Assembly: GCA_013289855.1 (NCBI GenBank)
Contig: JABCZD010000018.1
Span: 1-64,000, forward strand
From: Acidobacteriota bacterium
Lineage (GTDB): Bacteria; Acidobacteriota; Terriglobia; Acidiferrales; UBA7541
Length of the DNA stretch: 64,000 nt
Direction: 5' to 3'
Position 1 is the stretch's first letter. Each line of letters opens with the position of its first letter. The notes under the pieces are model-generated. The model was given only the letters and a program-made list of their open reading frames with translations, was not told the DNA's origin and searched no databases. A program made the translations under genes and the position numbers. Of this stretch, positions 25,402 to 37,120 are shown piece by piece.

Positions 25402-26827
25402 ACATAAAACCGTCGGGTGGTAGATCGGGCTGTAAGAATCGTTGCGGTTCGCCGGCGCCGCTTAGCGCGGCTTCGGCGGCCAGGTAGCCGCTGCGCACTG
25501 CGCCTTCCATAGTGGCCGGCCAGCCGGTGGCGGTCCAGTCGCCGGCGAGAAACATTTTCGTGACGGGAGATTTCTGTGGCGGACGCCAGCGGTCCACGCC
25601 GGGCTCCGGCGAAAACGTCGCAGCAGTTTCCTTGATAACCGTGGCTTTCACCAATTGTGCTTCGCGGGATTTCGGAAGTACTTGCCGCACCTCCTTCAAC
25701 ACCAAGTCAATGATTTCCTGGCGCGATTTTGGAATTAAATCGTACGACGCGCTGATCACCATTTGCAGGTACTGCTCGTTGGACTTGGGCGCATTGCTGG
25801 CAACGGGCGGATTTTTTTGATCCAGGGCGTCGGCGTACAGCATCGTTTTGTTAAAGATCCATTGCGTGTTGGTGTCCAGCAGGGTGACGAAGGGTTCATC
25901 CATTACCTGGCGATCGAACCAGAAGTGCACTCCGGTGATGGGTGCGTCTTTGATTTTACCGAGATTGCTGAAGGCGGCAACGCTTTCGCGGACGGCATCC
26001 GGCAGAAGTTCGCTGAACGTGGCGTGCGGAAGCGCGAAAACGTAGGCGTCAGCGGATTCCATTTTCGCGTCATCGAAACGAACGCCGGTGACTTCGCCAT
26101 TTTCGATGGCGATGCCGCGCACGGGTGCGCGCAGCGTTACTTCCCCACCCTTCTGCTCGATCGCAGATTTGCAGCCGTCGTAAAGATCGGCGAGCGGAAC
26201 CGTGGGAACGCCTATGCGGTAACCAGTGCGATTGGAGAGGAATGCTTTCCAGAAAACATCCACGCCGAACCGCGCGTCGGTGCGATCCAGTTCTTCGTCC
26301 AAGGCGCTGACCAGCACGACGCGCCAGAAACGTTCGATGGCGCCTTTGGTTTGTCTGCGGCGGAGCAGCCAATTAAGCATGGAAATGGGCGGCTGGTCGT
26401 CAAGGTCGCTGGGATGGCCTTTGGCGCGCAGAATGTCCAGCATGGCGCGGGCGATGGAGAGCTTATCCATGAGAGTCAGCGGCGCAAACATGGCGAACGA
26501 GCCGGCCATGTGAAACGGCGCGGGAAGGATGCCGGCGTGCATTTCGCCGCGGCGGCCCTGCGGATCGACAAACACGAGACGGTCGAAATATTTTATTTTG
26601 TTGCTTGAGCCGACGCGGCGATAAAAATCTTCGAGGTTAGTGCAGCAACCCAGCGTGACGTGCTGGCAATTGTCCACATGCTCGCCGCTCGGCAAAACGT
26701 AAGAAGTCGCGCGGCCGCCAAGAAATGGGCGCTGCTCGAAGAGACGAACGCGCCAGCCGGTCTCAGCCAGCGCGACGCCGGCTGCCAGACCCGCTAGTCC
26801 GCCGCCGATCACGATCACGTTTTTCAA
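25400..26827 (-). CDS. hpnE: Squalene-forming FAD-dependent desaturase/oxidoreductase HpnE
   Basis: 475 residues. The N-terminal FAD-binding motif GGGLAGLAAG (8-17) is followed by LFEQRPFLGGRATSY, typical of phytoene-desaturase-like amine oxidases, and the C-terminal FLAGDWTATGWPATMEGAVRSG closes the FAD site. In the HpnCDE route HpnE reduces hydroxysqualene to squalene. It overlaps the end of the fused hpnC-hpnD gene by 65 bases and is last in the hopanoid operon. Confidence 0.9.
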   Translation of the reverse strand: MKNVIVIGGGLAGLAAGVALAETGWRVRLFEQRPFLGGRATSYVLPSGEHVDNCQHVTLGCCTNLEDFYRRVGSSNKIKYFDRLVFVDPQGRRGEMHAGILPAPFHMAGSFAMFAPLTLMDKLSIARAMLDILRAKGHPSDLDDQPPISMLNWLLRRRQTKGAIERFWRVVLVSALDEELDRTDARFGVDVFWKAFLSNRTGYRIGVPTVPLADLYDGCKSAIEQKGGEVTLRAPVRGIAIENGEVTGVRFDDAKMESADAYVFALPHATFSELLPDAVRESVAAFSNLGKIKDAPITGVHFWFDRQVMDEPFVTLLDTNTQWIFNKTMLYADALDQKNPPVASNAPKSNEQYLQMVISASYDLIPKSRQEIIDLVLKEVRQVLPKSREAQLVKATVIKETAATFSPEPGVDRWRPPQKSPVTKMFLAGDWTATGWPATMEGAVRSGYLAAEAALSGAGEPQRFLQPDLPPDGFM

Positions 26828-28742
26828 GGATGTTCTCTTCCGTCAGGCGCCCGAAACGGGCTTTGGCGATGTACAACATTTTTTCTGGTTTAGTAAGGCG
26901 CACGCGTTCGCCAAACACCGCGAAGTCCACGGCTTCGAGGCGCGCCAGCAACGCGCTGTAAGTATGCACCAGCAGCCACAGCGTGCCGCGGCTATCCTGG
27001 TCGATCAAATCAAGCAGCGCCGCGCCCGCTTCGTAATTTTCCCAGGCGCGCTCCGCTTCAAAACGCAACAGTTCGCGCACTCCTAACGTGGCTTCACTCC
27101 GGCCGAAATCGGACGGCGCCACATTGTATCGGGCCAGGTCCTCCTCGGGAAGATATACGCGGCCCACGGCGTAATCTTCGTGGACATCGCGGATGATATT
27201 GGTCAACTGAAACGCCAAACCCAATTTTTCCGCGAGATCGATGGCGCGCGAATCTTTGAAACCGAAGACGTGCGTGCAGGTGAGACCCACCGTGCCCGCC
27301 ACGCGATAGCAATATTCTTTCAGGCGTTCAAAGGTTGGATACGCGTGAATCGTGAGATCCATCTCCGCGCCGGAAATCAAATCGTGCAAATACCGCGTGG
27401 GAATTTTGTAACGCTCCAGCGTGTCCGCCAGCGCCGGCAAAATCGCCAGCGAGGCATTGGGCGGCGCGTCCGCCAGCGTCATCGCCGCGGTACCGTCAAA
27501 ACATTGATCCACGCCGGTAACCGCTTCGTCCAGTTCCGCGCGCCACCGTGCCAAACCACGCTGCTTGGCCGGCAAGTCCGCGCCTTCGTCGGCAACATCG
27601 TCAACCAAACGATTGAAGGCGTACAGCGCGCAGAGGGCGTTGCGCTTAGGCTTCGGTAGCAGGTAGAAGGCGTAATAAAAATTACTGTTGGAGGCGCGGG
27701 CTATCGCTTGGCAAGCTTCGTAGGATTTAGGCACTTCTAAACTTGGCATCAGGCTCAGCGGTTGAGGTCTAGGCATCTGTGGCGCAGCGTGCCGCGCCCC
27801 TACAGGTTTGCTCCGTGCGGCGGTTGCGTCTGCGTCCTTGCGATTCGTCAACTTTGCGATTAGCGCTTGGCCCAGCAGTCGAACCTGTTTGCCTTTCGTA
27901 ACCACTGGCCGGTGATGCAGCGTATCGTAGCCGCCCGCTTCGATAGCGTCCAGAATCGCCAAGCCGCCGCGGCGGAACATATCAAGATCGACGCTGAGTC
28001 GGCCATCGACCAATTTCGGCAACGCCGCCCCTGCCGCGAAAAGTTCCCTGGTGCGGCAAATCAAATCCTGCATCAAGTGGACATAGCCTTCGTGATAACG
28101 CCGCGTGACAATGTCGTGTTCACTGACGCCGTGCAAGGCCGCAACATCCAGCGGAATATAGATCCGCCCCTTTTCCAGATCGCGGCTGACGTCTTGCCAG
28201 AAATTCGCCAGTTGCAGCGCGGTGCAAGTGGCGTCGGAAAGTTTCTGGCGTTGCTCATCGCGGTAGCCGCAGAGATACAACACCAGGCGGCCCACGGGAT
28301 TGGCTGAATAAACGCAATAGTCAATCATCGCGTCCCAAGTCTGATAGCGCTTTACGACTTGATCCTGGCGAAAAGCCTTCAGTAAATCCACGCATGGCTG
28401 CTCAGGAATTTTCCTGGCTTCCACGGTTTGCCGCAGCGCCACGAACACCGGATGCACGGGCCGGCCATCGTAACAAAGCCGCAGTTCGTGCCCCCACCAC
28501 TCCAGCAGTTGAAGCGCGCGTGACGTATCCGGAATCTCGTCGCCGAGATCGTCGGCCCAGCGGCAATAGGCGTACACATTGTAGAAATGTTGATGCAGCG
28601 ATTTAGGCAGCAGCCAGGAGACCACCGCGAAATTTTCGTAGTGATGCGTGGCCAGCCAGCGCGTGTAGGCCTCCGCGTCCGCGGCGGTGCAGCCGTTGGG
28701 CGGAAGTTTTTCCGCGATTTCCAGTTCGCCGGGACGAAGCAT
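26763..28742 (-). CDS. hpnCD: Fused HpnC-HpnD squalene biosynthesis protein
   Basis: 659 residues from the ATG at 28742 (TTG at 28793 is the alternative). Two trans-isoprenyl diphosphate synthase-like domains are joined. Domain 1 (about 1-300) has DDLGDE at 64-69 and NFWQDVSRD at 180-188 and matches HpnC. Domain 2 (from about 337) has DDVADE at 381-386 and NIIRDVHED at 515-523 and matches HpnD. These normally separate enzymes turn farnesyl diphosphate into presqualene diphosphate (HpnD) and then hydroxysqualene (HpnC). The linker contains VGARHAAPQ (314-322), which is a translated palindromic repeat. Gene order fits the HpnCDE pathway. Confidence 0.88.
   Translation of the reverse strand: MLRPGELEIAEKLPPNGCTAADAEAYTRWLATHHYENFAVVSWLLPKSLHQHFYNVYAYCRWADDLGDEIPDTSRALQLLEWWGHELRLCYDGRPVHPVFVALRQTVEARKIPEQPCVDLLKAFRQDQVVKRYQTWDAMIDYCVYSANPVGRLVLYLCGYRDEQRQKLSDATCTALQLANFWQDVSRDLEKGRIYIPLDVAALHGVSEHDIVTRRYHEGYVHLMQDLICRTRELFAAGAALPKLVDGRLSVDLDMFRRGGLAILDAIEAGGYDTLHHRPVVTKGKQVRLLGQALIAKLTNRKDADATAARSKPVGARHAAPQMPRPQPLSLMPSLEVPKSYEACQAIARASNSNFYYAFYLLPKPKRNALCALYAFNRLVDDVADEGADLPAKQRGLARWRAELDEAVTGVDQCFDGTAAMTLADAPPNASLAILPALADTLERYKIPTRYLHDLISGAEMDLTIHAYPTFERLKEYCYRVAGTVGLTCTHVFGFKDSRAIDLAEKLGLAFQLTNIIRDVHEDYAVGRVYLPEEDLARYNVAPSDFGRSEATLGVRELLRFEAERAWENYEAGAALLDLIDQDSRGTLWLLVHTYSALLARLEAVDFAVFGERVRLTKPEKMLYIAKARFGRLTEENILEKRDRDRRRTSGSGSRRRAG
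27781..27803. repeat. Palindromic repeat inside the hpnC-hpnD coding sequence
   Basis: On the minus strand this stretch reads GTAGGGGCGCGGCACGC then TGCGCC. It matches the intergenic elements at 59748-59771 and 61439-61461. In this frame it encodes the linker peptide VGARHAAP between the two synthase domains. Confidence 0.8.
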
Positions 28743-28844
28743 TGAAGGAGCGATTCCTCGACTGCGTTCAGTAGATTTTTGCGGGACGGGCAATCTTGTC
28801 GCCCCGGTGCAAAAAGCGCCTCAGAAGGCGGCTGCTACGGCGCG

Positions 28845-29969
28845 TTACGGGCGCACCGCTACTTTTATCTCTCCGCTGCGCGCTTTCATGCGCTGGAAGG
28901 CTTGCGGCAGGTCGGTCAGCGCAATCTCCTCGGTGACAAAATCATGCGCGGAAATGTCTCCGCGGCGAATGGCCTCCAGCGCTTCGCGGAAAAAGCGCGG
29001 TGTGTGGTGGAACGGTGAAATCAGCTTGATCTCCGCATAGTGAATAGCGGCTGGCTCGATCTCTACTTTGCTGCCGCTCGGCAAACCACTAAAGAAATTT
29101 ACCACCCCGCCGCGCCGCACCATTTCGAGAGCTTGCCGCCAGGTGGCGGGATTGCCCGCGGCTTCCACCACGGCATCCGCGCCGCGCGATTCGTCGGTAA
29201 GCGCGCGGACGGCGTAAATAGCGTCTTTGCCTTCCGTCACATTGATGGTCGCGAAGGCCCCGAGATGCCGCGCCACGTCCAACGGCGCGGAGCGCCGCGC
29301 CAGCGCGATCACCTTTACCCCGCGTCGCGATAGCATGCGAATAAATTTCAACCCGATGGGGCCGCAGCCAATCACCGCCACGGTATCTCCGGCGCGAACC
29401 TCCATTTCATGAATGCCGCGCAGCACGCAGGCCAGCGGCTCGGCCAGCGCCGCGCTGGCGTCGTCCACGGAGTGCGGAACTTCCAGCATATTTTCCGTGA
29501 CGATGCGCGACGGAATGCGCATGTACTCGGCGTACGCACCGTTGTTAAACAGCAAATCTTCGCACAAATTTTCCTGGCCGCGCCGGCAATGGAAGCAGCG
29601 CAAACACGGCGCGGAGTTGGCCGCCACCACGCGCATGCCAATGCGCCAACGCGCATCCACGCGCTTTCCCACCACCGCGACTTCGCCGACTACTTCGTGG
29701 CCGAACACCGCCGGCGGCTGAATCATCTTGGCGTGGTAGCCGCGCTTCCAGACCTTCAAGTCCGTGCCGTCCGTAAGCGCCAGCCGCACGCGCAGCAGCA
29801 CTTCGTCGGGCTTAACGCCGGGCACATCCATCTGCTCGATGCGCAGATCTTCGCTGCCGTACAGCACTGCGGCGGTCATCTTGGAAGGCACGACGATCCG
29901 CGCGGTGAGCACCTCGGCAGCTTCTTCACCGACTTCGGGCCGTTTGGGAATTGAGGTTCTGCTGCTCAT
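28845..29969 (-). CDS. Zinc-type medium-chain dehydrogenase in the hopanoid operon (polyol/sugar DH-like)
   Basis: 374 residues. GHEVVGEV holds the catalytic-zinc His and Glu, CLRCFHCRRGQENLC is the four-cysteine structural zinc site, and VIGCGPIGLKFIRM is the nucleotide-binding motif. The usual catalytic cysteine (CGICGTD) is replaced by aspartate (ALTDGTDLK), and a glutamate in ALAEPLACVLRG can be a ligand, as in Haloferax glucose dehydrogenase and the sorbitol-dehydrogenase branch. Its position behind hpnG and a second dehydrogenase suggests a role in hopanoid side-chain processing. Confidence 0.85.
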   Translation of the reverse strand: MSSRTSIPKRPEVGEEAAEVLTARIVVPSKMTAAVLYGSEDLRIEQMDVPGVKPDEVLLRVRLALTDGTDLKVWKRGYHAKMIQPPAVFGHEVVGEVAVVGKRVDARWRIGMRVVAANSAPCLRCFHCRRGQENLCEDLLFNNGAYAEYMRIPSRIVTENMLEVPHSVDDASAALAEPLACVLRGIHEMEVRAGDTVAVIGCGPIGLKFIRMLSRRGVKVIALARRSAPLDVARHLGAFATINVTEGKDAIYAVRALTDESRGADAVVEAAGNPATWRQALEMVRRGGVVNFFSGLPSGSKVEIEPAAIHYAEIKLISPFHHTPRFFREALEAIRRGDISAHDFVTEEIALTDLPQAFQRMKARSGEIKVAVRP

Positions 29970-30032
29970 ACGACGTATTCAACCCTCAGTTGCTAAAACA
30001 GTTGCCAATAAAGTTGCTCGGTGCCGCCGTTG

Positions 30033-31145
30033 CTAGCCGTGCGTAATTAAGATTTTCAATGATTCTTCCGTGGGCCGGGCCGCCAGTTCCAGGGCCTCCT
30101 GAATCTTACCCAGCGGAAAGCGGTGCGAGACGATTTCCATCACCGGGAGTTTCTTGTGCAGCACCAGGTCCGCAGCCTCTTCTTGAATGTCCGCGGCGGC
30201 ACTGTAGCTGCCCAAAATTTCTTTTTCGTCGATCCCTACGGCCGAGGCAGGAAATTCGATTTTGGTTACGGGATCATTCGCGGCGAACAGCAGCACGCGC
30301 CCACCGGGCCGAGCCGCCGCCAGCGCATCAATGACCACCGCAGGATGGGCTACTGCTACCAGAACCGCATCCGCCCCTCTGCCCCCAGAACGGGCTTTCA
30401 CCATTTCTACCAGCTTATCATTGGTTGGGTCAAAAGACTCCAGCGCCCCCAAAGTAAGACTCTTTTCGCGCCGGACGGCCATCGGGTCGCTGGTATACAG
30501 GTTGGCACCGGTCAGTTTGGCTACCATCAATAGTTGCAGCCCGATGGGCCCGCAGCCGGCGATCAACACCGTTTCACCCGAGGTAATACGGGCTTTCTGC
30601 ACCGCTTTGACGATGGTGTTGATGGGCTCGATGAACGTGGCTTCCTCGAAGCTGACGTCATCGGGAAGAGCCACGATGCCGCGCTCGGCCACCCACGGCA
30701 TGGCTTTTACGTATTCGGCGAAGCCGCCGCCATTGGGGGTGAACCCTCCCGTAAGGCCGGTGGTCTTGTATTGCGCGCATTGCGAGAACAGCCGGCGCTC
30801 GCAGTAGAAGCACGTCCCGCAGGGAACGTGATGAAAGCTCATCACGCGATCGCCGACGCGCCATTTGGTTACGCCTGGGCCGACCGCTACGACCGTGCCT
30901 GCTAACTCGTGTCCCAGAATTTGCGGCGGCGGGACGTACGCGTGAAAAATCTTTTTAATATCGGTGCCGCAAATTCCACACGCGGCGACTTTGATCAAAA
31001 CCTCGTTTAGGCCAACTTCTGGTACGGGCACTTCTTCTACCCGAACGATACCCTTTTCGCGATACACGCCGGCGCGCATGGTTTTGGGTACGGCGGCGGG
31101 GATGGCGCCGGAATTGATGCTAGACGGCGCGCTCACTGCAGCCAT
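30033..31145 (-). CDS. Zinc-type medium-chain dehydrogenase in the hopanoid operon (canonical zinc site)
   Basis: 370 residues from the ATG at 31145, which overlaps the hpnG stop by 13 bases; the longer start at 31187 lies inside hpnG. CGICGTDIKK gives the catalytic Cys, GHELAGTV the His/Glu, CGTCFYCERRLFSQC the structural zinc, and IAGCGPIGLQLLM the cofactor motif. FIEPINTIVKAV is the Glu-Pro motif of the sorbitol/threonine dehydrogenase branch. The overlap implies translational coupling to hpnG. Confidence 0.87.
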   Translation of the reverse strand: MAAVSAPSSINSGAIPAAVPKTMRAGVYREKGIVRVEEVPVPEVGLNEVLIKVAACGICGTDIKKIFHAYVPPPQILGHELAGTVVAVGPGVTKWRVGDRVMSFHHVPCGTCFYCERRLFSQCAQYKTTGLTGGFTPNGGGFAEYVKAMPWVAERGIVALPDDVSFEEATFIEPINTIVKAVQKARITSGETVLIAGCGPIGLQLLMVAKLTGANLYTSDPMAVRREKSLTLGALESFDPTNDKLVEMVKARSGGRGADAVLVAVAHPAVVIDALAAARPGGRVLLFAANDPVTKIEFPASAVGIDEKEILGSYSAAADIQEEAADLVLHKKLPVMEIVSHRFPLGKIQEALELAARPTEESLKILITHG

Positions 31146-31948
31146 CCTTGTTTGCGGCCCGCCGCGTTCGCTGTAGAGACCGCCCACTCGCGGGCCACCG
31201 CAGTGCGCCGCGCATCTTCGGCCAACGCCGGGAGAAAACGGTCCAGGAAATCCGCCAACGATACTGCGGCGGCGCGGCTGTGACGGCCGAAGCGGATCAG
31301 CAGCGGCAGGCGATACGGATGCAACGCCAATTCCTTGAGCAGCCCGCCGACTTTCACGTGACCGCGTTCATCCGCGATTTTTTGGAAATCCAGCGGCAGA
31401 TCTTCTTCGGCGATATCGCTGATGCAGCGCACCGCCACCGCCGGCATTTGACGGTGTTGCGCGGCGGCGAGAATGTGCGTGGATTCCATTTCCACGACGT
31501 TCGCTATGGACGCCAAAGACTCTTTCTCCAACGATGTCACGATGACGGTTTCCGTGGTGAGGAACGTATCGACAGCCCTCGCCGCGCAGGAAACCGCCAC
31601 GCTTACGAAGTCCGGTTCGCTGGGAATTTTCAGCGCATGGTCACGGGTCTTTACCGCGCGGGCAACTACGGTAGTGCCGAGTTGCAAACCGGCGTCGAGC
31701 GCCCCCGCCAAGCCGGTGGAGATCCACGCGTCGTGTTCTCCCGGAGGGACAATGCGCATGGCGCGAGTAGCGCTGGCCGCGCCCATGCCAGTGAGCAGTA
31801 CGGTCACTTCGTGATTGGCGATGTTGGCGCGGTACATGTCGAAGTCCCGTTTGCGCCCCGAATTATCGTAGTCATACGGCACGAACGGATGGCGCGACTT
31901 CCACGGATTGAACTCGGCGTCGATGGCGAACGTGAGCAGGAAGCGCAT
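31133..31948 (-). CDS. hpnG: Hopanoid-associated nucleoside phosphorylase HpnG
   Basis: 271 residues from the ATG at 31948; the upstream in-frame stretch translates a GCCGCC palindromic repeat. It has a purine-nucleoside phosphorylase fold: FAIDAEFNPWKSR, VTVLLTGMGAASATRAMRIV, STGLAGALDAGL, VVEMESTHILAAAQ and VRCISDIAEE, with the conserved Glu and Asp of the active site. HpnG removes adenine from adenosylhopane to give (phospho)ribosylhopane. It is followed directly by two dehydrogenase genes. Confidence 0.87.
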   Translation of the reverse strand: MRFLLTFAIDAEFNPWKSRHPFVPYDYDNSGRKRDFDMYRANIANHEVTVLLTGMGAASATRAMRIVPPGEHDAWISTGLAGALDAGLQLGTTVVARAVKTRDHALKIPSEPDFVSVAVSCAARAVDTFLTTETVIVTSLEKESLASIANVVEMESTHILAAAQHRQMPAVAVRCISDIAEEDLPLDFQKIADERGHVKVGGLLKELALHPYRLPLLIRFGRHSRAAAVSLADFLDRFLPALAEDARRTAVAREWAVSTANAAGRKQGWLQ

Positions 31949-31954
31949 GTTGTT

Positions 31955-32062
31955 CTGTAGCGGCCGCCTTCTGTTTACCCCGAGCTTCGCGGGGAGGCGG
32001 TCGCCTTTCGTCGGCCACACCTGGCCGTCTCTGTTAGCTTAGATGCCGCCCTCAAGGGCGGC
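31955..32062. repeat. GCCGCC/GGCGGC palindromic repeat cluster between hpnA and hpnG
   Basis: CTGTAGCGGCCGCCTTC at 31955 recurs at about 1712, with GCGGGGAGGCGGTCGCC as partial complement. A second short palindrome, GCCGCCCTCAAGGGCGGC, follows at about 32045-32062. These are dispersed intergenic elements inside the operon. Confidence 0.6.
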
Positions 32063-32100: not shown

Positions 32101-33210
32101 CTATGCCGCAGCAGCGTGCACAATTTTTTTCGCCCGGCGCGGCGAAACGTAACCATTATCCTCGTACCAGCGTACCGCGCGTTCCAGCGCGGCGGCTACC
32201 GCGGTGGGCCGAAAACCCAGCTCGCATGGCGCGCGCGAAGCGTCCACAAACATCAAGTGCTGAGCGATTTTCACGCCCTCAACAGGAATTTGCGGTTCGC
32301 GTCCGAGCAGCCGCGAAAAAGCGGTCTCCGCATAGGCTACGCTTAACGCCACGCCATGCGGAATCTTTAATTTCGGCGCGGGCAGACCGGTGATTCTGGC
32401 CAGCGTATCCAGCAACTCCTTCAGAGTTAAATTTTCCGCACCCAGCAAATAACGCTCGCCAACTTTTCCGCGTTCGGCGACGAGCAGATGTCCTGCGGCG
32501 CAATCTTCCACACCCACGAAATTCAGTCCGGTCTCAACATATCCGGGCATTTTGCCGTTTAAAAAATCCACGATGATCTTTCCCGTGGGCGTCGGTTTCC
32601 AATCCCACGGACCAACAGGCGTGGTGGGCATCGCTACGATGGCCGGCAAACCGCTTTTTGCCGCCGCTAAAACTTCGGCTTCGGCTTGCCACTTGGAGCG
32701 CTTGTAGTGACCCACCATTTCATCGAGCCTGGCGTCTGTGAATTCGTTGGGAAGATCGTTGTGCGTTTTAGTTCGCGCAGGCGACGACGAATCTTCGTCC
32801 GCTCTTGCGTTGGATGTGGCTTGGCGATCGACGGCGATCGTCGCCACGGTGCTGGTGTAGATCAGCAGTTCTACGCCTGCTTGTTTCGCGGCCGCCAACA
32901 AATTCTTCGTGCCGCCTACATTGGAGTCGTAAATGTCTTGCGATTTCTTCGCCCACAGGCGGTAGTCCGCGGCCACATGGTACACATGGCGAATTCCGCT
33001 CATGGCGCGGTGTAGCGATGCGGCGTCCCGCAGATCTCCGGTGACGTACTCGAGCGGCAGATCAGCGATGGCGCGATTGCTGCTGGAAGGGCGCAGCAGC
33101 ACGCGGACGGGTTTGCCGCGCGCTACGAGTTGCCGCGCCACGTGGCTGCCGAGAAATCCGGCCGCGCCTGTAACCAGTGTGGTTGCGGGGGTGCTTCCAG
33201 AGGCGGTCAC
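32101..33210 (-). CDS. hpnA: Hopanoid-associated sugar epimerase HpnA
   Basis: 369 residues of the extended short-chain dehydrogenase family. TLVTGAAGFLGSHVARQL is the NAD(P) motif, DLRDAASLHRAMSGIRHVYHVAADY follows, and YTSTVATIAV with YKRSK supplies the catalytic Ser/Thr, Tyr and Lys. MPTTPVGPWDWKPTPTGKII is the typical HpnA block. Its reaction is not settled. It overlaps the stop of the upstream radical-SAM-like gene by four bases. Confidence 0.87.
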   Translation of the reverse strand: MTASGSTPATTLVTGAAGFLGSHVARQLVARGKPVRVLLRPSSSNRAIADLPLEYVTGDLRDAASLHRAMSGIRHVYHVAADYRLWAKKSQDIYDSNVGGTKNLLAAAKQAGVELLIYTSTVATIAVDRQATSNARADEDSSSPARTKTHNDLPNEFTDARLDEMVGHYKRSKWQAEAEVLAAAKSGLPAIVAMPTTPVGPWDWKPTPTGKIIVDFLNGKMPGYVETGLNFVGVEDCAAGHLLVAERGKVGERYLLGAENLTLKELLDTLARITGLPAPKLKIPHGVALSVAYAETAFSRLLGREPQIPVEGVKIAQHLMFVDASRAPCELGFRPTAVAAALERAVRWYEDNGYVSPRRAKKIVHAAAA

Positions 33211-34076
33211 TGGACCGCGACCCCTTCGGAAGAGACCGTCGTGTCGTGCGCACCGCGCACCTTGGGATCAATCGGCATTTGCGTCGCGGATTGCTGCGCT
33301 CCTGCAACCGTAGCCGCGCCGCTTTGCGGTTCGTCAATCGAGAGCTGTACCAGGCGCGAAAACGATGCCCACCCGGAGTTCCCAATTAGACCGCGCGCGG
33401 CAATGGCCGTCTCGCGTTGCTCTTTGGAGGCATCGCTCTCCGCGGTGATGATCATGCCGTCTAAATTCATGCCGCAGAGCTGCTGCAACAGCAGGTTGAT
33501 TTCGTGGAGTTGAGTGTCTGGTTCGACGACCACGTGCGTGCAAATCAAAAAACCGGAAAGGTGCGCAGCGCGCAGGCCTTCCATGGCCAATGCAAAAGCT
33601 CCCTCGCGCTTCATGCGACGGTCGTGCGTGTGCGGTGTACCGTATAGGCGAACGGTGACATACAAGCGCGCATCGGGGCGAAATTCGTGAATGCGCCGTC
33701 GCAACAGCGTTCCGTCGGTTTCCAGGAACACGGTGCGGCCGGCGTCGCGCAGTTGCCGAGTGAATTTCCCGACCGCTGGACAGGTTAACGTATCGGACGA
33801 TGAGGTACCGGACGATGCGGAATCCGCGACGCCGGTGAGCCAAAGAATCGGACAAGTCGGCGTCTTTGGGGATTTGTTTGCGGCGGAGGAACTCCCGCCG
33901 TTCGCGGAGCTTTTCTTCGCTGCGGGCGCGGCTTTTCCTACGGTGGCTTTTGCTGTTTCTTCCACCGTCAATGGGACCTGGATGCGCAGCAGGGGTAATT
34001 TCTTTTTCGTGCCGGGAAGGGCTTGCGCTAACCGAAATCTTGCGAGCGTGCCCGCGAGGCGGTAAGGCGTGCGCAT
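33207..34076 (-). CDS. Radical-SAM-like (HpnH-like) protein lacking the iron-sulfur loop
   Basis: 289 residues. LPLLRIQVPLT (27-37) lines up with the strand before the CxxxCxxC loop of HpnH, but the loop is replaced by an Ala/Lys/Ser-rich linker (about 38-74). The rest keeps the barrel order: ILWLTG (77-82), TVFLETDGTLL (115-125), LYVTVRLYGT (138-147), HDRRMKREGAFALAMEGL (151-168), then GFLICTHVVV and GMIITAESD. Only four scattered cysteines remain, none in a cluster motif. It lies between shc (7-base gap) and hpnA (4-base overlap), where an hpnH-type gene could be expected. The fold assignment is by eye. Confidence 0.6.
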   Translation of the reverse strand: MRTPYRLAGTLARFRLAQALPGTKKKLPLLRIQVPLTVEETAKATVGKAAPAAKKSSANGGSSSAANKSPKTPTCPILWLTGVADSASSGTSSSDTLTCPAVGKFTRQLRDAGRTVFLETDGTLLRRRIHEFRPDARLYVTVRLYGTPHTHDRRMKREGAFALAMEGLRAAHLSGFLICTHVVVEPDTQLHEINLLLQQLCGMNLDGMIITAESDASKEQRETAIAARGLIGNSGWASFSRLVQLSIDEPQSGAATVAGAQQSATQMPIDPKVRGAHDTTVSSEGVAVQ

Positions 34077-34083
34077 TGCGGTC

Positions 34084-36099
34084 TTAAAACCCGCTGCGCA
34101 GCCGGAACTCGCTGGGCTGGAATTTGATCGCGCAATATTCGCCGGAGTTCAGCGCTTGATTGTAATAACGCGCCAGGGCGTAAACGGGGAAGGAATTGCG
34201 GTATAGGTGATATTTCAGATAAAAGACGCCGGGAAAACCCGTGCCGGTAAAATCGTCTTCGCTCCAGGAGCCGTCGGAGTTTTGCTGCGTGGTTAGATAA
34301 CTGACCGCTTTGGTGATCGCGGGATCGGAGGTTTCCGCGCCGGCCAGCAAGCCAATCAAGCCCCACGCCGTTTGCGATGGCGTACTGGGACCCTGGCCTT
34401 TGGTGTTGAGTTCGTCGTAGCTGCGCAAAGATTCGCCGAAGCTGCCGTCGGGCTTTTGCACCTGGCGCAGCCATCCTACGGCACGCTGGCAGAATCCCTG
34501 CGCGGTCATGCCCACGGTTTCCAGCGCGCGCAAAACGCCGCTGGTGCCGTATACGAAATTGACTCCCCAACGCCCGAACCACGCGCCGTCGCGGTCTTGA
34601 TCCTTCAGCAAAAATTTTACCGCGCGTTGAATCGCGGGATGTTCCGCAGGCCAGCCAAAGCGTCCGAGGCACTCAACCACGCGCGCGGTAACGTCAGCGG
34701 TGGAAGGATCGATCATGGCGTTGTGATCGGCGAAAGGAATGTTGCACAAAAACTTGTGGTCGTTGTCGCGATCGAAAGCTGCCCAGCCGCCATCGCTGTT
34801 CTGCATGCTCAGCAGCCATTGCAAGCCGCGGCGGATGGCGCCTTCCATGCGCGCGGAGTCGGGAAATTTCACCCGTTGCAACGCCATCAGCACGAACGCG
34901 GTGTCGTCCACGTCGGGATAGTAATCGTTGCGGAACTCGAAAGCCCAGCCGCCGGGTTCGGCATCTTTGTTTTTGATTTGCCAGTCGCCGGGGCCGAGAA
35001 CTTGCTTTGAAAGCATCCACTCGGCGGACTTCACCAGCGACGGATGGTCCGGCGGGACGCCCGCCTCTTCGAGGGCCACCATGGCGATGCAGGTATCCCA
35101 CACTGGCGAGACGCACGGCTGCAGCCGAATAGTTTCCTCTTCTTCGATTTCGAAATTCGCGAACTCTTTTATTTCTCGCCAGGTGACCGGATCTTCCGGA
35201 CCGTGACCGAGGGCGATCAGCGCGAAAATCGAATTCATCATCGCGGGATAAATCGCGGCGAGCCCTTCGGTGCGCTCCATGTGCTCCATCATCCATTGCT
35301 TGGATTCGCGCAGCGCGCGCGCACGCAGCGGCTTCCAGGGAAATTTCTCGTACAGCTTCAGTCCGCGATCGACGGCCAGGAAGAAATTCTTCCAGGATAT
35401 GAGTTGGTCGCTCCAATCGAAAGCCGCCGTTTTGTGATTCGGGTCTTTGAAAAGTTCGTCGACGCGCGCATGCGCGGGCAGGCGGAAGTCCGGCCGCACC
35501 GCGGAAAGAATGCCCATGGGAATTACAATGCCGCGGGTCCAGGAAGACATTTCGTAGATATTTATGTAGAACCAGTTGGGCAGCAGCATCAGCTCCGGCG
35601 GAATGGACGGCACGAGTTCCCAGCCAACCGCGCCAACCAGCGCCAGATAAAATCGCACATACGAATTGGTAAGTTCGAGACCGCCGAGGCGATGAATGAT
35701 TTCTCGCGCGCGCGTTAGATGCGAAGAATCGGGAGAATCGCCGGCCAGCTTTAGCGCGAAATAAGCTTTACACGTGGCGTTCAGCTCGGACGGTCCACCG
35801 GGATAGATGCTCCAGCCGCCATCGGGGAGTTGCCGCGCGCGAACGTAGTTGGCGAGCTTGGCGATGCGTTCCGGCGCGGCCTTTCCCAAAACAAAAAGAT
35901 AGTAGATGTAATCGGATTCGAGGGTGGTGTCGGCTTCAAGTTCGCCCTGCCAGAAGCCGCGTGCGTCTTGCAAAGATACCAGGTGGGAAGCGCCGCGCTC
36001 GATGGCTAGCTCGAGGCGCGAGGCAAAATTCTGCTCTTTCCAAGGCACCGGTGCCGGAGCGACGGGCAGTTCTTCACCTAACCTTGCAAATGACGCCAT
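34084..36099 (-). CDS. shc: Squalene-hopene cyclase
   Basis: 671 residues. The catalytic acid motif DVDDTA is at 396-401. QW repeats include GFWQGEL, DGGWSIYPGG, GPGDWQIKN, DGGWAAFD, DGAWFGRWG, DGSFGE and DGSWSEDDFTGTGFP. Aromatic-rich blocks (LLPNWFYINIYEMSSWTRG) line the cavity. It cyclises squalene to hopene at the inner membrane and heads the hopanoid operon, whose upstream 316 bp should contain the promoter. Confidence 0.95.
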   Translation of the reverse strand: MASFARLGEELPVAPAPVPWKEQNFASRLELAIERGASHLVSLQDARGFWQGELEADTTLESDYIYYLFVLGKAAPERIAKLANYVRARQLPDGGWSIYPGGPSELNATCKAYFALKLAGDSPDSSHLTRAREIIHRLGGLELTNSYVRFYLALVGAVGWELVPSIPPELMLLPNWFYINIYEMSSWTRGIVIPMGILSAVRPDFRLPAHARVDELFKDPNHKTAAFDWSDQLISWKNFFLAVDRGLKLYEKFPWKPLRARALRESKQWMMEHMERTEGLAAIYPAMMNSIFALIALGHGPEDPVTWREIKEFANFEIEEEETIRLQPCVSPVWDTCIAMVALEEAGVPPDHPSLVKSAEWMLSKQVLGPGDWQIKNKDAEPGGWAFEFRNDYYPDVDDTAFVLMALQRVKFPDSARMEGAIRRGLQWLLSMQNSDGGWAAFDRDNDHKFLCNIPFADHNAMIDPSTADVTARVVECLGRFGWPAEHPAIQRAVKFLLKDQDRDGAWFGRWGVNFVYGTSGVLRALETVGMTAQGFCQRAVGWLRQVQKPDGSFGESLRSYDELNTKGQGPSTPSQTAWGLIGLLAGAETSDPAITKAVSYLTTQQNSDGSWSEDDFTGTGFPGVFYLKYHLYRNSFPVYALARYYNQALNSGEYCAIKFQPSEFRLRSGF

Positions 36100-36415: not shown

Positions 36416-37120
36416 TCAGATGGCAACGGTTGGAGGTCCTTCAAGGGCACGCTTAACTAGGACGGCCAGCGGATCCGGGAGCGGGTCCCCTTCGCGCTGA
36501 TTCACCGAGGGCTTTTCGCGGAGGAGTTTTGCCGGGAGTTTCATCCACAGCGGTTCGGCGGAGGAGGAAATAGTGTTGCCGCGAAGCACCAGGGCGTCGG
36601 CGCGGTCGAGCGCGGCGCGCGCGGATTCCTTGAAGTCTTCTTTGGCGGGATCGAGCACCGCAAAAAATAGCGAGGGCTTCACGAACTGCATCAGCGAATT
36701 GCTTTCGACAATCAGTGCTCTCGGCTTGTGTGCGTTTTCGCTAGCGCTGGGGCTTTCGGCCGCTGATTCGGATGCTTCGCCGATGGCTTGGCGAAGAATT
36801 GGCAAGCCTTCCGCCAGGAAACCCTGTTTGGTGCGCAGCCAGAAGGAGCGTTGCGCGCCGGCGGCCAGGAAGCGCGAACTGTCGGTTCCAGTGGTGGCGG
36901 AGTGCTCCCAGCTGATGGCGCAGATGTGTTCGTCGGGGGCGCAATCGCAGTCGTGACCCTTTTGCGCGCATACGCCGTGCCCATATTGCGTGATCTTTCC
37001 CGCGATCCAGCGCACTTCGGGAAACGCGGCGATTACATCGCAGACGAGTTGCGTCTTGCCGATGGTGCGCGTGTGCCCGCCGACGATGATTACGCGCCAA
37101 GGATGATTGGTTCTGGTCAT
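36416..37120 (-). CDS. P-loop NTPase with cysteine cluster (MobB-like), unknown function
   Basis: 234 residues. GGHTRTIGKTQL is a Walker A motif at the N-terminus, as in MobB/dethiobiotin-synthetase-type GTPases. It is followed by an unusual GHGVCAQKGHDCDCAPDEHIC stretch with four cysteines and two histidines that could bind a metal or an iron-sulfur cluster. LIVESNSLMQFVKPSLFFAVLDP resembles the nucleotide-sensing strand of the fold. It lies between lpxD (20 bp) and the hopanoid operon on the same strand. No molybdenum genes are nearby. Confidence 0.65.
   Translation of the reverse strand: MTRTNHPWRVIIVGGHTRTIGKTQLVCDVIAAFPEVRWIAGKITQYGHGVCAQKGHDCDCAPDEHICAISWEHSATTGTDSSRFLAAGAQRSFWLRTKQGFLAEGLPILRQAIGEASESAAESPSASENAHKPRALIVESNSLMQFVKPSLFFAVLDPAKEDFKESARAALDRADALVLRGNTISSSAEPLWMKLPAKLLREKPSVNQREGDPLPDPLAVLVKRALEGPPTVAI

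Follow-up and report, generated by a model that had tools for sequence, protein, structure and literature searches.

A cysteine-less, HpnH-derived putative pseudoenzyme between shc and hpnA in an acidobacterial hopanoid operon

The gene between shc and hpnA in the hopanoid operon of the analysed 64,000-nucleotide stretch of an Acidobacteriota contig (the window), here called X, most plausibly encodes a pseudoenzyme that arose from the shc-linked type A form of HpnH, was left as a second form, type B, took over, and would now have a non-catalytic role beside the squalene-hopene cyclase (SHC); we put the probability of this reading at roughly 70%. Hopanoids are bacterial sterol-like lipids, and HpnH is the adenosylhopane synthase. 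The origin of X from type A HpnH is well supported, and X is probably a hopanoid-binding or partner protein. Counted in favour were the presence of type B in the genome, a graded series of states of the shc-hpnA slot, the grouping of all cysteine-degraded copies in one clade, the mutual exclusion of intact type A and type B, constraint on the core of X, newly fixed residues and the barrel in the AlphaFold2 model.

The reading frame and strand of X, the 7-base gap to shc and the 4-base overlap with hpnA were exactly as given in an initial annotation of the window made from its letters alone (Table 1). The gene order lpxL-lpxD-orf-shc-X-hpnA-hpnG-ADH-ADH-hpnCD is conserved across the genus in the genomes with enough flanking sequence, and, when every state of X is counted, the shc-hpnA slot is occupied in another 31 genomes of the genus. 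Passages of a hopanoid survey (PMC5462960) describe the clustering of hpnH with shc in subdivision 1 Acidobacteria, Koribacter excepted, and mention that hpnCD is fused in SD2 Acidobacteria. The ribosome-binding site of hpnA, GAAGAAGG, lies within the 3′ end of X, a few bases ahead of the overlapping ATGA. The conserved C-terminal peptide EEGVxIA was considered as a protein motif of X and rejected, since this ending is accounted for by the hpnA ribosome-binding site.

Table 1. Location of X, its parts and the neighbouring operon genes in the window.
Feature	Position	Strand	Evidence or remark
X, cysteine-less HpnH-derived putative pseudoenzyme, 289 aa	33207..34076	(-)	ORF; partial TIGR03470 match; slot orthologues
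Linker, residues ~37-75, replacing the first helix and the CxxxCxxC loop	33852..33968	(-)	Alignment with intact type A and cysteine-degraded full-length forms; low pLDDT
Trp79	33840..33842	(-)	Trp in 24/24 short forms aligned, Ser in 70/70 intact type A
Glu119, aligned with Cys106 of HpnH	33720..33722	(-)	Alignment
Retained partial β/α barrel, residues 76-248	33333..33851	(-)	pLDDT mostly >90; fold matches; core dN/dS
Shine-Dalgarno-like GAAGGGG for hpnA	33221..33227	(-)	Within the final codons of X, which encode its conserved 'EEGV'
shc, squalene-hopene cyclase	34084..36099	(-)	TIGR01507, 737 bits
hpnA	32101..33210	(-)	TIGR03466, 423 bits
hpnG-like phosphorylase	31133..32020	(-)	TIGR03468, 121 bits, below the cut-off of 187
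Fused hpnC-hpnD	26763..28793	(-)	TIGR03464 and TIGR03465 within one ORF

The only good family match of X was to HpnH (TIGR03470), with residues 95-213 aligning to model positions 82-200 at an E-value of 5e-17; the score of 61.9 bits lies below the cut-off of 225, and the match does not run over the full length. Radical_SAM (PF04055) gave 19 bits, below its gathering cut-off of 29.5. With HpnH, X shares its descent from the shc-linked type A, the six barrel strands and the place in the operon, but it differs in three respects. The CxxxCxxC site for the [4Fe-4S] cluster is absent from X of the window and from all 25 short forms; the loop had been described as replaced by an Ala/Ser/Lys linker, and an Ala/Ser/Lys-rich linker was indeed found in its place. 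The cysteine of the LCTN motif, which is residue 106 exactly in both intact HpnH types and which is the residue reducing the radical intermediate according to a passage in PMC12583986, is replaced by Glu in most short forms and by His, Asp or Gly in others. Finally, the C-terminal DUF3463 domain (PF11946), found in type A, type B and cysteine-degraded full-length HpnH, gave no match in X of the window or in the orthologue from genome G018, and about 100 amino acids are missing from the short form after strand 6, up to the Trp-containing helix of the C-terminal domain. With the cluster site, the radical-reducing residue and the C-terminal domain all gone, HpnH chemistry would be excluded on established principles, and the short form should not make adenosylhopane by this route. 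S77, C106 and N168, among other positions constant in intact HpnH, are changed in X, so that the hopene site may not survive.

The AlphaFold2 model of X, built on a 34-row alignment, has a pLDDT of 81 and a pTM of 0.77 and shows a six-strand partial radical-SAM barrel (strands 29-34, 77-82, 115-120, 138-144, 177-184 and 207-212, with helices between them). Confidence is low at residues 43-63 and in most of the tail past residue 258, and the linker is disordered, with pLDDT values of about 41-51 over residues 41-70. All nine Foldseek matches to the PDB at E ≤ 0.001 are radical-SAM proteins, comprising BlsE, SkfB, NifB (five chains), DesII and TYW1; entry 7bi7 is presumably NifB, going by its title. 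The TM-scores to these entries are about 0.4, in the range expected for an incomplete barrel of which some parts are disordered. The initial annotation had read X as a radical-SAM barrel without its iron-sulfur loop and had named the lack of a barrel in a predicted structure as the result that would speak against it; the strands of the model and its top fold matches both show the barrel, and the CxxxCxxC motif is missing.

A survey of the shc-hpnA slot in 36 genomes of the genus revealed a graded series. Intact type A HpnH with the motif CNLTCTGC occupies the slot in three genomes (G033-035). In four others there is a full-length copy of 347-350 amino acids with an intact C-terminal domain and a degraded cluster motif, of which the first and second cysteines remain in G036 and G040 and only the second in G010 and G028. 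The short cysteine-less form was found in 25 genomes, the window included, and the slot is empty, with shc adjoining hpnA, in three (G022, G039, G041). In the remaining genome, G009, the contigs end at the slot; a candidate decayed copy of X there, a fragment with stops, was taken as spurious, as no operon gene lies on its contig. The three genomes without X retain shc, hpnA and type B HpnH, so that X is not essential for the operon. Sequencing error as the cause of the cysteine loss, which the initial annotation had named as a possible refutation, was rejected, because a short cysteine-less orthologue occupies the slot in 24 further genomes of the genus and thus 25 genomes agree. The losses of DUF3463 and Cys106, the placing of the true HpnH on another contig and the graded intermediates all go beyond that first reading.

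Scanning the genome contigs for relatives of X with the single sequence returned none, and an alignment-based scan returned 23; public records hold 22 acidobacterial loci matching the form of X, many of them titled 'gp2'. When 399 genomes of the class were searched with an alignment, only the genus of the window yielded the short form; short forms scored 243-347 bits and everything else at most 175. The cysteine-less form is thus confined to one genus and does not extend across Acidobacteria, and all 60 type A homologues from other genera and families keep CNLTCTGC.

A true HpnH elsewhere in the genome, as had been surmised, was located on contig C5 (353293-354240), far from the operon. This type B copy scores 553 bits and carries the motif CNLACAGC together with DUF3463 and Radical_SAM domains; twenty further type B copies all have CNLACAGC, and in the type B tree the copies of the genus group with some g11 copies. 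When the HpnH model was run over 95 genomes of the order, with counts made by hand, type B was present in 43 genomes (498-557 bits) and intact type A in 39, including a frameshifted one, and no genome of the order held both, with one doubtful exception (G037). In the exception, a divergent HpnH carrying CNLTCTGC lies next to a second squalene-hopene cyclase of 44% identity (L072, 1495-3253); the pair is on a 3.2-kb contig of a genome with 4% contamination and is possibly itself contamination. The frameshifted type A gene (L084, in genome G066 of another genus) is split by an apparent frameshift that may be an assembly error, and no type B was detected in that genome.

On the HpnH tree, a single clade inside type A (SH-aLRT 98) unites the short copies with the full-length cysteine-degraded ones, and the cysteine state changes once. 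In a tree of the concatenated operon proteins, genomes with intact type A branch first, followed by those in which the gene is absent and then by the full-length cysteine-degraded and the short groups; the short group is weakly supported (16) as a single clade there. According to both trees, the cysteine loss fits a single episode limited to the type B-bearing part of the genus.

Taken as a history, an ancestor within the genus would have come to carry a second, canonical HpnH, type B, at another place in its genome, whether by transfer or from an ancestral copy, and this HpnH would have taken over adenosylhopane synthesis; the order of type B gain and type A decay is suggested by their co-occurrence. 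In the type B-bearing part of the genus, the shc-linked copy is gone in one lineage and is otherwise cysteine-degraded at full length or short. As the most likely mechanism, the barrel of X would act without catalysis next to SHC. It may bind diploptene or another hopanoid and hand it over to type B HpnH, or it may dock on SHC or HpnH. The initial annotation had suggested that X may bind lipid or regulate a true HpnH. That a retired radical-SAM enzyme has become a dedicated hopanoid-binding or SHC/HpnH-docking protein, with intermediate stages alive in sister species, is a tentative proposal to which we give somewhat less than even odds.

Pairwise dN/dS values (NG86; dS is near saturation in many pairs) were 0.15-0.36 for the short form; in the same genomes, shc, hpnA and ADH2 gave about 0.02-0.15. 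The rate at which X evolves exceeds that of the neighbouring operon genes several-fold, so that the constraint is modest, and it is clearly weaker than that on working enzymes. By region, dN/dS was 0.09-0.29 in the core (residues 76-248), 0.18-0.59 in the N-terminal linker and about 0.4-1.4 in the C-terminal tail, which is close to neutral; the bootstrap upper limits for the core were mostly below 0.45. At seven sites, short forms and intact type A each have a constant residue that differs between the two; these include Trp79 and His181, the latter found in 21 of 24 short forms vs. Asn in 70/70 intact type A. In a neutral simulation of X along a single lineage at 0.25 substitutions per site, a copy acquired four stops on average, and the probability of none was 0.02; the real frames are open in all 25 genomes. 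The initial annotation had judged X to be kept by selection, and the core dN/dS and open frames bear this out. The pattern looks like that of a protein with a changed role and not of a decaying gene.

The main rival to a non-catalytic role is a relic kept by chance. X would then be functionless and retained because clean deletions in frame seldom arise and its last codons hold the Shine-Dalgarno sequence of hpnA, which would couple hpnA translation to shc. The identity of the EEGVxIA ending with this sequence and the fast evolution of X agree with such a relic, as does the absence of X from the three genomes with an empty slot and from other type B genomes such as G049 and G071. The explanation is nevertheless unlikely in our view, as it accommodates neither the low core dN/dS and its bootstrap limits beside a near-neutral tail, nor the new invariant residues, nor the lack of any frame-breaking change in 25 species where the simulation expects four stops; moreover, shc and hpnA are adjacent in operons without X, so that the operon can work without it. 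Improbable to a greater degree is a new enzyme, in which the barrel would have taken on an activity, independent of SAM, towards a hopanoid or its sugar side chain. Trp79, His181 and, in most members, Glu at the Cys106 position would be constant polar or aromatic candidates for such an activity, and X still sits in the hopanoid operon, but no cofactor or metal site is recognisable in X, the Glu119 position varies in some members, and X has been lost outright in some relatives.

Several observations also count against the pseudoenzyme with a non-catalytic role, namely the fast evolution of X, the changed positions that are constant in HpnH, the near-saturated dS and the short X in G029, where no type B was found in a genome that is 86% complete. 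Its complete loss in three related genomes further shows X to be dispensable.

Among known systems, the haloarchaeal family TIGR04347 resembles X as a radical-SAM-derived family called pseudo-SAM, going by its NCBIfam name (pseudo-SAM/SPASM) only, but it has another lineage and domain set, and at 18.9 bits vs. a cut-off of 525 X is not a member. HemW and Campylobacter CgdH2 are radical-SAM-fold heme carriers (PMC10320005); a radical-SAM fold carrying the product of a neighbouring pathway step would parallel the proposed working of X, although the cluster motif is kept in these proteins and absent in X, whose carrier role is putative. Full-text literature searches, covering papers outside subscription, gave no report of a cysteine-less radical-SAM or HpnH pseudoenzyme like X, and the passages seen of the Acidobacteria survey (PMC5462960) contain no mention of a cysteine-less HpnH.

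If X has become a dedicated hopanoid-binding or docking protein, a bacterial lipid pathway would have its own pseudoenzyme partner. The states of the slot show how a radical-SAM active site is lost, as a readable series from three cysteines to two, one and none, followed by loss of the C-terminal domain, in an operon otherwise unchanged and confined to cases in which a replacement enzyme is present. The passage of diploptene from SHC to HpnH is predicted to be genetically testable. For surveys using hpnH as a biomarker gene, caution is advised: all four cysteine-degraded full-length copies (L070 6795-7838, L042, L059, L067) score 253-262 bits and pass the NCBIfam cut-off (e.g., 254.8 vs. 225 bits), and they would therefore be annotated as active.

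Three further features of the operon were recorded. Between lpxD and shc lies a gene for a 234-amino-acid protein (36416-37120, minus strand), which is kept in the genus at 55-71% identity, has a P-loop-like GGHTRTIGKTQ at its start and a Cys/His-rich stretch, and gave no match in Pfam, NCBIfam, PHROG or the PDB. The hpnG gene, in the window and at loci L040, L041 and L055, is far more divergent than its neighbours and switches type among close relatives, with dN values of about 0.73-0.76 vs. about 0.02-0.07 for shc (G007/G026 against G008/G024), which suggests that hpnG was replaced while the rest of the operon stayed fixed. The hopanoid operon of the genus also includes a tandem pair of zinc-type alcohol dehydrogenases (28845-31187, minus strand), which are highly conserved (74-90%).
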